Shown here one piece after another: positions 3,562 to 32,189 of a stretch of DNA of 34,353 nucleotides. Position 1 is the first letter of the stretch, and each line of letters starts with the position of its first letter. This stretch comes from Candidatus Coatesiibacteriota bacterium (GTDB lineage: Bacteria > RBG-13-66-14). The translations under genes were made by a program, and so were the position numbers. The stretch covers positions 1 through 34,353 of the forward strand of contig WJMB01000138.1 in assembly GCA_014728185.1 (NCBI GenBank), written 5' to 3'. The notes under the pieces are model-generated. The model made no database searches. It was not told the origin of the DNA and worked only from the letters and a program-made list of their open reading frames with translations.

Positions 3562-3908
3562 GGGATTATCACGCGTGATTTAACAGGTATGCATCGCTAT
3601 TAGCTGGATATATAGTGGTTTATAGCTGTGCAAGTCGTCCCTGTTTGTGCAAGGCCTGGTGGCGAAAACCAGACTTGCTCTATGAAGGTTCTTTAGAGAA
3701 CACGCATGAGAGTCGGGAAGTCGCGACTCCTGATTTACATCCCAGGTTGTATGAGACTAAACGCTTTCAAACAGCGGCTTTGGCAGGTATGAAAGCTCTT
3801 TGGCTCGTCGAATAAACAGCCTTGCGAAAGATTGTTGTCAGCACCTCCTTTCTAAATGCCGCGCTTTTGCGTTTTCGACGTAGGTTTTCAGTATCAGGTG
3901 ATAATCCC
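3562..3908 (-). mobile_element. repeat family B, copy B3
   Basis: A 347-bp copy of repeat family B, inverted relative to B1. The ends are GGGATTATCAC and GTGATAATCCC. It aligns with B1 along the whole length, sharing CCTACGTCGAAA, AGCCAAAGAG, AGGAGTCG.GACTTCC, and TCATAGAGCAAGTCTGG followed by TTTTC and GCCACCAGG. The short ORFs over it (3615-3815, 3822-4013) are not conserved in other copies. The 8-bp flanks match only after a 1-nt shift (ATTGCTTA and AATGCTCA, 6/8). Confidence 0.75.
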
Positions 3909-4448: not shown

Positions 4449-4809
4449 GGCACCACACACGACCTCGGACCAACCAACTTCAACTCGAAACACCACCCCA
4501 CCTCGAAAAAAAGCTGCTGATACGAAGCTATGCCGAATGATGTTTGGCCTGCCAGCTCAACCCCTCGGCGACTGCTAGTTATATATGCATGATAATTGAT
4601 TACTTAGCATCGATAAATCGTCATCGAAACCCATTGCGCCAGGCAGTTGATAATGGAGCTTCGTGACGCCGTCAGGGTATCCCGGGAATGTGAAAATCCA
4701 CGTACCTGCCACAATCAGTTCGCTCGATGTGCACATCTGATTGCCTGCTGACAGCATGTCTCAGAACGATATCCAGTAACACCATGGTCCGTGACCATTA
4801 AGTGATCCC
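4449..4809 (+). mobile_element. repeat family A, copy A1
   Basis: A 361-bp repeat with ends GGCACCAC and GTGATCCC. It is very similar to A4 (29705-30064, inverted) over its full length and clearly related to A2 and A3. The inverted termini share the pattern GGSAYCAC, about 10 variable bases, then CGGACCA. Flanks TTCTTTTA and TTCTCATA match at 6 of 8 positions, consistent with a decayed 8-bp target duplication. The left flank is the T-tract of the preceding terminator. Confidence 0.78.
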
Positions 4810-5292
4810 TTCTCATAATATATTGGAATCAAGTACGGAGTAGCCTGATAAGGGGCGAATGAATGTTTGCCGCCGACACGTAGCGGTCTTGCGGAGCAAT
4901 AATCATTGGACGGGGTCCTCCGACCCCGTCACCAAGCATTGCCATTTTGGATTAACGCGGACGTTTCGAAAGACCAAACCCTAGATATCCCCCCCCGATC
5001 TTGCTCTGTAGGGCGGCCCCTCTGCGAGCCCCCGCGAATATTAAACCGCGTTGCGGGTCTGCAACCTCTCATTCGTCCACGCCTTCCAGAATGCAAATGG
5101 ACGGTACAGGCGAGGACGAACGGTTTTTGACAGACCACACCGATGGTTCTTCTAGTCTCATTCGGTCTTGCACAATTCAATCTCGGTAACCACACTTACA
5201 GTACCGTCACAGTGAATTCACCCAGCAATTTCGCCACAATGCACATAACCCCCATTATCAGAAGCCCGCCACACGGCGGGGTAAAAGTAAAA
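4810..5292. other. 483-bp intergenic stretch with two strong hairpins
   Basis: No gene is seen. GACGGGGTC and GACCCCGTC (4909-4930) form a 9-bp stem with a 4-nt loop. CCCGCC and GGCGGG (5265-5280) form a second stem with loop ACAC, directly before B1. Neither has a T-tract or an obvious gene to terminate. The overlapping ORFs are low-complexity shadows. Confidence 0.4.
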
Positions 5293-5646
5293 GGGATTAT
5301 CACCTGAAACTGAACCTACGTCGAAACCTAAAAATAGCGTCATATAGAATGGATGTGCCCACAACTACCACATGAGGGCCTTCAGCTCGACGGGCCAAAG
5401 AGGGTTTGCGTATCAGCTAAACCAGCTGTTTGGAAAGATTTAGCATCCATATGACTGGTAAGACCGGGATGCTAATAAGGAGTCGGGACTTCCAGACTCT
5501 CAGCGTCCTCTTGCAGCGCCCTCATAGAGCAAGTCTGGTTTTCCGCCACCAGGCGACGCATGGACAGGGACAGCTCGCGCAGCTATAAAGTACATGATAT
5601 CAAGCTATTAGCGATATATGTCTGTTCAGGAACGTGTGATAATCCC
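5293..5646 (+). mobile_element. repeat family B, copy B1 with a perfect 8-bp target duplication
   Basis: A 354-bp element with inverted ends GGGATTATCACCTGAA and TTCAGGAACGTGTGATAATCCC. It is flanked directly by AAGTAAAA on both sides (5285-5292 and 5647-5654), an exact 8-bp direct repeat. Internal hairpins shared with B3 include GAGTC...GACTC near 5482-5501 and CTGGT...ACCAG near 5535-5553. No ORF is conserved between copies. Confidence 0.82.
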
Positions 5647-5654
5647 AAGTAAAA

Positions 5655-7165: not shown

Positions 7166-7527
7166 GGGATCACTTAACTGTCACGGACCATGGTGTTACT
7201 GGATATCGTTCAATTATCAGCAGTTGGGGGACAATCAGGTTTGCACATCGAATTAGTTGTTTGTGGCAGGTCAAGTGGGTTTCCACATTCCCATGATGCT
7301 CGTGTTGATTTCTCGGCGCTCAACAAGGAACTGCTTGCTACTATCGGCCTCGATGAAGATGTGTCGATCCCAAATAGCCTAATAGCAAACATATATAACG
7401 AGTAAGCACTGGTATTTGAAGACAAGAGTCTGCTCTTTCTTCGGCATTGTCATGTATCAGGCGTTTTTTGCGAGGTGGGGCGGTGTTTCGAGTTGTAACT
7501 AGCTAGTCCGGGATCGTGTTTGATGCC
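7166..7527 (-). mobile_element. repeat family A, copy A3
   Basis: A 362-bp, inverted copy with ends GGGATCAC (7166) and GATGCC (7527). It shares with A2 the inner segments GGTTTNCACATCGA, TTCTCGGCGCTCAA and CACCATGGTCCGTGAC. A 71-residue ORF (7190-7405) overlaps it and has a 63-residue counterpart in A2, but the codon changes do not look like selection on a protein. No target duplication is visible. Confidence 0.75.
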
Positions 7528-7535
7528 CTTCTTAA

Positions 7536-7639
7536 TTGCAATTTTAAAAAGCTTGTTTTGTGACGGGTGTCCGATACCAATCACGTATATTATCAACAGG
7601 ATAGAATCACGAGCAGGTCCGAAGAGGGTATACGATCCC
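7536..7639 (+). repeat. family C right-half fragment
   Basis: TTGCAATTTTAAAAAGC, then CCGATACCAATCACG, TATTATCAAC and GGTCCGAAGAGGGTATACG with GATCCC. It is nearly the same as the C segment beside A4 at 29601-29704. It lies directly beyond A3. Confidence 0.65.
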
Positions 7640-7769
7640 TAATCATTTTCACGGTTCTTAACGGCTATCGACCAGAGCAGCGGGTCGGGCGACCTGTAGG
7701 CAGGTAGGAGCGCCGGGGTGTGCTTGCTCAGTTGTCAACATTCGAAAACCAGTCAAGCATAGATGTTGG

Positions 7770-11087: not shown

Positions 11088-11405
11088 GAGATCATATACT
11101 CTGATCGGACCGGGCTGTGTTCGTAATCTGCTTATATTACACGTGTAGCAGAAGATATACCTGTCACTTTCCAGCAGAAAAAAGTGGTGGTGATATGGGA
11201 CATGCTCGTTGGATAACCTACCCTGCCTAGTTGCCTGCAAAGAAAGACCACCCGATTGCCGCTCGACTCATAACTGCCCCAATATCAAGTAACAAGACTA
11301 CGCATGATAAGTATCGGGATTCAAGCCGAACGCAACTAAACAGCCAACTCCTCGTGAAGCTCTCATTATCGACCCTGATTTGGTTCGATCACGTTCTATG
11401 ATGGC
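11088..11405 (-). mobile_element. repeat family C, copy C2
   Basis: A 318-bp full-length copy. On the minus strand it starts GCCATCATAGAACGTGATCG and ends CGGTCCGATCAGAGTATATG with ATCTC. It aligns with C3 throughout, including GCAGTTATGAGTCGAGCGG, GGCAGGGTAGGTTATCC, AAAGTGACAGG and AGCAGATTAC. No coding content is seen. It lies just downstream of pheT. Confidence 0.72.
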
Positions 11406-14229: not shown

Positions 14230-14601
14230 GGGATCACACACGATCATGGACCAGCTAGTTATAACTCGAAACACCGATCCACCTCGAAAAACGGCTGATA
14301 CGAGGCTATGCCGAATGATGTTTGGCCTGTCAACTCAACCCCTCGGCGCCTGCTAGTTATAGCCTGTTAGTTATATATATGATAATTAGTTACTTGGCAT
14401 TAATGAATCGTAATCGAAGCCCATTGCGCCAGGCAGTTTCTTCTTGAGCGCCGAGAAGTCATAACAGGCATTATAGAAATGTGAAACCCCGCTTAACTTG
14501 CCACACACTAAAAACTCGATGTGTAAACCTGCTTGCCCGCTAACTGCTGATAATTGAACGATATTCAGTAACACCATGGTCCGTGACCATTAAGTGATCC
14601 C
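14230..14601 (+). mobile_element. repeat family A, copy A2
   Basis: A 372-bp copy with the clearest inverted termini: GGGATCACACACGATCATGG on the left and, read inverted, GGGATCACTTAATGGTCACG on the right. It matches A1 over ACTCGAAACACC, GCCGAATGATGTTTGGCCTG, CCCATTGCGCCAGGCAGTT and CACCATGGTCCGTGACC. It lies between two family C segments in the pheS-pheT gap. Confidence 0.78.
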
Positions 14602-14737: not shown

Positions 14738-14777
14738 TACGATGATAACCCACCGCCACTCGATAAACCGACGGGGA

Positions 14778-14854
14778 GGCGTTGGCGCGTTTGTTGCGCA
14801 GGCGGGGGTTGGTTCGCAGTGGCGGTGCGCACTCGCAAGAAACGTGCCAACGCC
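14778..14854. repeat. inverted repeat family D, copy D1
   Basis: 21-bp arms (14778-14798 and 14834-14854) match at 19 of 21 positions when inverted, around a 35-nt spacer. The arm reads GGCGTTGGCGCGTTTGTTG. The same arm occurs at 27460-27541. It lies 15 bp after the pheS stop, so it could form a stable 3'-end hairpin on the pheS transcript. Confidence 0.65.
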
Positions 14855-24350: not shown

Positions 24351-24417
24351 CAGGGACATCCAAGACCAGCTTGAATGACGGCGTTAACCGGACCGGCAGA
24401 GCCCCGCATTTCTGATA

Positions 24418-24642
24418 GGCACCATGGAATGTGTTTGGAATGAATCAGGGCGGATACTGACAGGCTCACCGAGCAGGCAATCGCCGACTGCAGGCTTATT
24501 CACAGTGCAGTTTATCATCCGAGCACACCCCATATCGCCGCCGCTTCTTGACCGCTGATAAGTGACAGGCGCATCTGCTGCTACACGCGTCTTATCAGGA
24601 TAATACAATCGCTACTCGATCCGCACAGGGTATACGATCCCT
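24418..24642 (+). mobile_element. repeat family C, internally deleted copy C4
   Basis: The left end GGCACCATGGAATGTG and the right end GCACAGGGTATACGATCCC match C3, but about 95 bp are missing inside. Flanks TTCTGATA and TCCTGAGA match at 6 of 8 positions, consistent with a decayed 8-bp target duplication. Confidence 0.65.
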
Positions 24643-24725
24643 CCTGAGAGGCATACGTCTGAGAGGCTTGACCATTCTCGACCGTGTTCCGGGTTGCTGA
24701 TGATCACTCCATGATCCTCGGTTAT

Positions 24726-25985: not shown

Positions 25986-26332
25986 GGGATTATCACCTGA
26001 AACTTAACCGACATTGAAAGGACACTGAGCGGAATATAGAGCGAAAGTGCCAACAACCAGCTCACGAATGGCTCCAGATCGATATGCCAATATTATCATA
26101 TCTGCTAAGTAGCTATTTAAAAGCATATGGCATCCTAAGACTGTGAAGCCAAGGATGTACGCCAGGAGTCGCGATTACTCGACTCGCAACGTTCCATTAG
26201 AATGTTCCGCTTAGAGAACATACGTTTTATGCCAACGGGCAACACACGGACACTGACAACCCGCATGGCAATAAGACACTAAACAACAGGCTATTGGCCA
26301 TATATGCCTGTCCAGGTACGTGTCGTTATCCT
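25986..26332 (+). mobile_element. repeat family B, copy B2 (diverged)
   Basis: The left end GGGATTATCACCTGAAAC is identical to that of B1. The right end, CTATTGGCCATATATGCCTG then CCAGGTACGTGTCGTTATCC, is a decayed match. The middle keeps AGGAGTCG...CGACTC with a different loop. No intact target duplication is seen. Confidence 0.68.
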
Positions 26333-27391: not shown

Positions 27392-27459
27392 CGGCGGGGT
27401 GGGATTGACGATTACCGGCGACCTCGGCTCGTCGTTCTCGCGCGACTGGGTCGAAAACC

Positions 27460-27541
27460 GGCTTTGGCACGTTTTTTGCGCCGTCCCGCCGCCCCTGGTC
27501 GGCCGGCGATGTCTTCCTGTTGCAAAAAACGTGCCAAAGCC
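27460..27541. repeat. inverted repeat family D, copy D2
   Basis: Perfect 20-bp inverted arms, GGCTTTGGCACGTTTTTTGC and its complement at 27522-27541, around a 42-nt GC-rich spacer. The arm matches D1 (consensus GGCKTTGGCRCGTTTNTTGC). It sits about 195 bp downstream of gatD. Confidence 0.7.
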
Positions 27542-29405: not shown

Positions 29406-29600
29406 TGAAAACACTAATGATGAACCTCAGATACTACTCAGAAAACCGGCTGTTAAAAAGGCGGTGGCAATCAAAGGGCGTTATCTGTAGCAGATTTTAG
29501 TATCAACGTGCTTGAATGTGCCCTGAGGGCAGCGAGCTACCTGGACCTAAGTACAGTAATAACAAGCACTAAGGGCGCACCAAGTTAACGCTATATAAAA

Positions 29601-29704
29601 GGCATCGAATACCCTGTCCGGACCTGATCGTGATTGTATCCCGTTGATAATAGACTTGATTGGTATCGGATACCTGTCACGAAACAGGCTTTTAATAATT
29701 GCAT
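29601..29704 (-). mobile_element. family C copy C5, right half (split by A4)
   Basis: On the minus strand it ends with AGGTCCGGACAGGGTATTCG and contains CCGATACCAATCAAG. The other half of the same copy lies beyond A4 at 30065-30147. Confidence 0.62.
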
Positions 29705-30064
29705 GGGATCACTTAATGGTCACGGACAATAGTGTTACTGGAGATCGTTCTGATACAAGCTGTCATTGGGCAATCAGGTTTGCACATCGAATTAGTTGTT
29801 TGTGGCAGGTACGTGGATTTCCACATTCCCAGGATACCCTGACGACGTCACGAAGCTCCATTATCAACTGCCTGGCGCAATGGGTTTCGATGACGATTCG
29901 TCGATGCTAAGTAACCATTTATCATGTATATATAACTAGCAGGCACCGAGGGCTTGAGTTGGCAGGCCAAACATCATTCGGCAAAGCCTCGTATCAGCGG
30001 CTTTTTTCGAGGTGGATCGGTGTTTCGACTTGAAGCTGGTTGGTCCGAGGTCGTGTGTGATGCC
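29705..30064 (-). mobile_element. repeat family A, copy A4, nested in a C copy
   Basis: A 360-bp inverted copy, the closest relative of A1. Ends are GGGATCAC and GATGCC. Flanks AATTGCAT (29697-29704) and AACTGCAT (30065-30072) match at 7 of 8 positions, a clear target duplication. Both flanks belong to one family C copy, so A4 inserted after C5. Confidence 0.8.
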
Positions 30065-30933: not shown

Positions 30934-30960
30934 GGGGACCGGGTTTACCGGTCCCCTTTT
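30934..30960 (+). terminator. Rho-independent terminator of the secreted-protein gene
   Basis: GGGGACCGG and CCGGTCCCC, a perfect 9-bp stem with loop GTTTA, then TTTT. Confidence 0.88.
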
Positions 30961-30991
30961 CCATTCTAAGTGTCGCTCGTTGTCCCTTTAA

Positions 30992-31058
30992 CGTTGGTTC
31001 AGTTGCAGGTGATAATCCCATTAGCGATATGCATCAGTTCAGGTGCGTGTGATATTTT
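30992..31058. repeat. relic of repeat family B (two ends only)
   Basis: GGTTCAGTTGCAGGTGATAATCCC (one B end) is followed at once by ATTAGCGATATGCATCAG with TTCAGGTGCGTGTGAT (the other B end). The ~290-bp interior is missing. It abuts the iscU terminator. Confidence 0.6.
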
Positions 31059-31063
31059 CAACC

Positions 31064-31091
31064 AAAAAGCCCGCCGGAGCGGGCTTTCGTT
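31064..31091 (-). terminator. terminator of iscU (bidirectional)
   Basis: AAAGCCCGC and GCGGGCTTT form a 9-bp stem around CGGA. On the minus strand, the iscU direction, TTTTT follows; on the plus strand CGTTTT. Confidence 0.8.
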
Positions 31092-31866: not shown

Positions 31867-32189
31867 GGCATCATGGTACGTGATCGGACCAAATCTGGGC
31901 GGATATTGCACGGTGCACTGAACAGGTACTCGTTGTTTGTGTGCGCCCGAGTTTGATCCCGATTTTACCACGCGCAGCCTTATTGCTTGAATATGAAGCA
32001 GTTATGAGTCGAGCGGTATTCGGGTGACCGTTAACTGCAAGGCAATAGGCAGGGTGGGTTATCCTCCGAGCACACACCTTGCAACCGCCACTATTTTGAT
32101 CGCTGAAAAGTGACAGGCACCTTTTCTACTGTACGTTTGTTATCAGCAGATTACAAACGAAACCCGGTCCGAACAGGGTATATGATCCC
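31867..32189 (+). mobile_element. repeat family C, copy C3 (reference copy)
   Basis: A 323-bp, full-length copy with ends GGCATCATGG and ATATGATCCC. The inverted termini share GGSATCAT, about nine variable bases and TCGGACC, almost the same pattern as family A. It aligns with C2 throughout. Confidence 0.72.

Follow-up and report, generated by a model that had tools for sequence, protein, structure and literature searches.

The element B1 is a non-coding repeat of 354 bp with the same 8 bp, AAGTAAAA, directly at both of its ends, and the locus raises the question whether this pair is the scar of a transposition and which transposase could have moved an element that has no such gene of its own. 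The window, i.e., the whole stretch of 34,353 bp analysed here, is part of contig C6 in a genome of 2.90 Mb and 405 contigs, and contains further copies of B and of two other repeat families, A and C, all of which sit in intergenic regions (Table 1). Reading the letters directly, the duplication around B1 was found to be perfect, as the initial annotation had claimed, and the weaker matches reported for A4 (7/8), A1 and C4 (6/8 each) were likewise recovered. Taken alone, the window is only suggestive, as most other copies there have lost the duplication or never had one.

Table 1. Copies of the repeat families A, B and C in the window, with the terminal features of B1.
Feature	Position	Strand	Basis or remark
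Family B, second copy, 73% identical, duplication not surviving (1/8)	3562..3908	-	
Family A (A1), 6/8 duplication TTCTTTTA/TTCTCATA	4449..4809	+	
Target-site duplication of B1, left copy AAGTAAAA	5285..5292	+	sequence
Element B1, non-coding, MITE-like, 354 bp	5293..5646	+	
Left terminal inverted repeat of B1, GGGATTATCAC	5293..5303	+	looser match extends to TGAACC at 5311-5316
Right terminal inverted repeat of B1, GTGATAATCCC on +	5636..5646	-	
Target-site duplication of B1, right copy AAGTAAAA	5647..5654	+	sequence
Family A, beside C-like half element (7537-7640), duplication 1/8	7166..7527	-	
Family C	11090..11403	-	
Family A, duplication 1/8	14230..14601	+	
Family C (C4), internally shortened, 6/8 duplication TTCTGATA/TCCTGAGA at 24410-24417 and 24642-24649	about 24418..24641	+	sequence
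Family B, third, older copy, 66%, right end degraded, duplication not surviving (1/8)	25986..26331	+	
Family A (A4), 7/8 duplication AATTGCAT/AACTGCAT	29705..30064	-	
Family B remnant (nested or rearranged), left end directly next to an internal segment from the right end of another B	30960..31068	-	
Family C, 323 bp, duplication 1/8	31867..32189	+	

The families extend far beyond the window. A census based on searches and fetched contig stretches gave at least 42 genome search matches for B, at least 40 for A and at least 43 for C, and the exact 11-mer GGGATTATCAC occurs 155 times in the own genome, 28 times in the relative G003 and 0-3 times in other relatives, its reversed control being absent from both the own genome and G003. 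Profile searches of 816 kb of fetched contigs, a sample enriched by contigs picked because of matches, found 32 A, 69 B and 134 C matches including fragments, which covered 6.2%. Where sampling was systematic, taking about one in three of the contigs C1-C118 (273 kb), coverage was 4.6%, which extrapolates to about 600 matches with a wide error and with family A clearly under-sampled, so that A, B and C occupy ~4.6-6% of the sampled genome. Across the three families the elements measure 320-390 bp and reach dozens to hundreds of copies; their longest stop-free stretches have a median of 64-72 aa and a maximum of 94-119, and a transposase gene is lacking. Much of the length range of B (350-390 bp) arises because a short tandem unit (about CATCCTCTTGG) varies in number among copies (L004, L003, L013; alignment A2 columns about 223-268). 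A selected internal core in B, the palindrome GAGTCGCGACT, was considered and rejected, its conservation not exceeding that of the ends and the motif not being found outside B copies in the sample.

Testing all genomic copies for 8-bp direct repeats had been proposed initially, and the lack of such repeats in other B copies had been named as what would speak against transposition. Among the distinct full-length copies with flanks (37 A, 55 B and 67 C), perfect 8-bp duplications were present in 12 B, 8 A and 10 C copies and duplications of at least 7/8 in 18, 19 and 21, respectively, B1 being one of the perfect B cases. Lengths of 4-7 and 9-12 bp occurred 0-1 times each. When left and right flanks were shuffled among 28 A, 36 B and 28 C copies, each family yielded about 0.2-0.4 perfect 8-mers; for the 36 B copies the mean was 0.26 and the maximum 3 in 1000 shuffles, compared to 10 observed. 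B copies that have a good duplication deviate less from the family profile than the remaining ones (P = 0.005), as would follow from a decay of duplications with age; in A and C the trend is alike but not significant (P = 0.09 and 0.26). A, B and C also share one target motif, a palindrome that has A/T at the two edges of the cut and is unconstrained in between.

Empty sites in related genomes had been regarded as the decisive check. Since B was absent from 40 relatives, nested insertions in the own genome were used: elements often lie inside other elements, and unoccupied copies of the host repeat thus act as empty sites. Joined-flank queries gave junction-spanning matches in 41 of 156 cases. 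Where the duplication matched at 7/8 or better, deletion of the element plus exactly 8 bp restored an ungapped junction in 14 of the 23 best matches, compared to 0/21, 0/23 and 0/22 when the element plus 0, 4 or 12 bp was deleted. Examples are the insertions of A into C at TCCCGATA (93% over 190 bp), of B into C at TTTTTTAA and of C into B at GAGATTTA. Hence the check succeeded for the families inside their own genome, but not for B1 itself, for which there is no empty counterpart, as its flanking sequences occur only once in the genome and the relatives yielded no B. Duplications of 8 bp in all three families, a common palindromic, A/T-edged target and empty sites restored by taking out exactly 8 bp with the element together corroborate the earlier view of true transposition by one type of transposase. 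As an observation on the targets themselves, a C-like repeat (window 7537-7640 and 29600-29703; L150, L177, L096, L104) was hit recurrently. B and C copies both occupy the same AAAGGTAA site, while several copies of A lie at AATTGCAA in related sequence, which suggests insertion hot spots.

ISL3, IS256, IS66 and IS1595 had been put forward as candidate families for the transposase. IS1595 is indeed present with the same ends, but neither ISL3 (DDE_Tnp_ISL3, PF01610) nor IS256 (Transposase_mut, PF00872) has a match in the assembly. The IS1595 DDE domain PF12762 was matched 13 times in the own genome, 34 times in G003, 4 times in G002 and once each in G004, G005 and G010. Intact transposases of 257 aa in G002 and G004, which are same-family genomes, pass the Pfam and NCBIfam cut-offs for IS1595: intact homologues reach 104-107 bits for PF12762 (own partial copy 73 bits, cut-off 27) and 151-155 bits for NF033547 (own partial copy 96 bits, cut-off 75). 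These proteins also carry the N-terminal zinc ribbon (PF12760), which with 25.4-26.2 bits in L203/L204 barely reaches its cut-off (25.4); to our knowledge, this ribbon is absent within the IS1595 family only in the IS1016 group.

An intact IS1595 transposase was not assembled in the own genome. The proposed search for an autonomous IS with matching ends was answered in part: IS1595 elements whose ends are of the A, B and C types exist in the own genome and its relatives, but the B-type IS of the own genome (contig C87) is frameshifted and lacks a portion of the DDE domain. C-type copies in contigs C184, C245, C355 and C47 run into contig ends, as a repeat that interrupts the assembly should. 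Those in C308, C368, C7 and C47 have one internal deletion in common, by which transposase residues at about 103 and 157 are joined, followed by TAG, and the sharing of one deletion by several copies suggests that the deleted ISs themselves multiplied in trans. Deletions in the transposase gene also recur near the same place beside short direct repeats (GAGCTGGA, CTCGAG), namely in own C-type copies (L212, L214, L104, L219), in the B-type IS of C87 and in A-type copies of G003 (L229 8165-8725 and 1648-2168), the junction in the latter being slightly different.

Oriented by the transposase gene, the ISs display three end types, which resemble the ends of families B, A and C, respectively. B-type ISs read GGGATCATCACAGAAGATGAACAT...TTCATAATTAGGTGATAATCCC (own C87; L205, L221, L224 and others in G003), starting with GGGATCATCACAnAAGATGAAC with small variations and ending in GTGATAATCCC (C87, L205, L221, L224); A-type ISs GGGATAACTTAGTG.../...CGTGTGTGATGCC or CGTGTGTGATCCC (G002, G003, G004); and C-type ISs GGGATCGTATACCTTATTCGGACC...GGTCCGATCAGGTTACATGATGCC (5' end in own C355 and C47, 3' end in C184, C245, C248 and others). 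The partner end types, GGGATTATCAC, GGCATCACACACG/GGGATCACTTA and GGCATCATG/GGGATCGTATACC, begin with GG (GGGAT/GGCAT). When IS ends were scored against the repeat families, the own family scored highest for each, a preference that is clear except for the weak 5' ends of B-type and G003 A-type ISs. The exact 11-mer GGGATTATCAC lies at the transposase-side end of several B-type copies, compared to ~1.4 chance occurrences expected per genome; the 5' end carries GGGATCATCAC, and among the places listed no pair of exact 11-mers at a distance of 1-3 kb marked out a full B-type IS. In the parts examined, the likeness between B and the B-type ISs is limited to the ends. In family A, the left end GGGATCACACACGATCATGGACC of the copy at 14230-14601 recurs unchanged at the transposase-side (3') terminus of an A-type IS1595 copy in G003. 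The partners leave the same scar: in L224 of G003 a B-type IS is flanked by a perfect duplication (TATAGGTA, 8/8), as is an A-type IS (TTGTTTTA, 8/8), the last element base of which is changed.

Short, present in many copies and without a transposase gene, A, B and C have inverted repeats of the partner type and duplications of the partner's length (8 bp), as MITEs do, and we are highly confident that they are non-autonomous elements of this type, moved by IS1595-family transposases that would act in trans and make a staggered cut of 8 bp. A transposase supplied in trans would recognise the ends of B1 (GGGATTATCAC and a conserved TGAAC block ~18 bp further in), move the element and join it to the target DNA by a presumably staggered cut of 8 bp, from which host repair would produce the two copies of AAGTAAAA. 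IS1595-type subfamilies with matching ends would move A and C likewise. Because the three families match three IS subfamilies, the one type of transposase was probably not one enzyme for all. Most likely three IS1595-type subfamilies mobilise A, B and C in trans, each presumably serving mainly its own MITE family.

Several IS families generate 8-bp duplications, IS66 and IS6 among them, and it could be assumed that another such transposase (ISL3, IS256, IS66, IS6 or others) moves A, B and C, the likeness to IS1595 ends being convergent. The lack of an assembled intact IS1595 gene in the own genome would fit, but this reading is strongly disfavoured and in our view quite improbable, since IS256 and ISL3 are without a match in the genome, the IS1595 ends correspond family by family, and the exact 11-mer stands at the transposase-side end of several B-type ISs against the ~1.4 chance occurrences per genome.

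Still less credible is a conserved structured RNA or regulatory repeat that spread by recombination or duplication instead of transposition. B1 folds better than its shuffles (z -3.75) and the window copies are intergenic, but 17 of the 35 predicted pairs fall in the terminal inverted repeats or just inside, conservation is highest at the termini, the covariation term of RNAalifold is about 0, no Rfam match was found in the window, and precise 8-bp duplications with empty sites require transposition. That the AAGTAAAA pair is a chance repeat, made commoner by A/T-rich flanks and missing from two other B copies in the window, can practically be dismissed, as shuffled flanks match perfectly over 8 bp in ~0.7% of copies (0.26 in 36) and 10 were observed including B1, at length 8 only.

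Mobilisation by IS1595-type transposases places A, B and C beside systems described before. As a rule, members of IS1595 lie between duplications of 8 bp, and Merlin elements, which are related to them, have GG at their termini (PMC8101967); A/T-rich 8-bp duplications were reported for one element of the family (PMC12561309). The partners found here agree in PF12762 and zinc ribbon (DDE_Tnp_IS1595/ISXO2-like; Zn-ribbon subgroups), GG ends and A/T-rich duplications of 8 bp, whereas the MITEs encode no protein and the partners form three end types. In Haloquadratum walsbyi an ISHwa6-related MITE of the IS1595 family has 165 bp, 7 copies, IR 25 and DR 8 (PMC3852290), and is comparable as a non-coding element with ends of ~25 bp and 8-bp duplications; in contrast, the elements studied here comprise 320-390 bp, three families and hundreds of copies nested in one another. 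High copy numbers of non-autonomous elements are familiar from Correia (>120 copies) and ERIC (up to 711; PMC10969869), but A, B and C differ in that their partner IS family has been identified and that empty sites demonstrate how long the duplication is. A, B and C thus add to a kind already known, and the surprise is moderate, since IS1595 MITEs and high-copy bacterial MITEs had both been described; what stands out is the copy number together with the clean proof inside one genome.

A large share of the repeats between genes in this genome is explained by the three families, as are contig breaks at their copies. Three IS1595-linked MITE families with empty sites in the same genome also offer natural data on how closely related transposases discriminate ends. 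Whether the three MITE families co-diversified in parallel with three IS1595 subfamilies in one lineage of a small phylum, reaching ~5% of the genome and serving as each other's targets, appears evenly balanced to us; if so, natural data could reveal which ends each transposase subfamily recognises. Apart from A, B and C, a separate family of palindromic repeats of 85-130 bp with the core GGCACGTTTCTTGC...GCAAGAAACGTGCC, forming REP-like hairpins, was observed in the window (14768-14854 and 27456-27497), in L108 (79-211) and at dozens of places in the sample.
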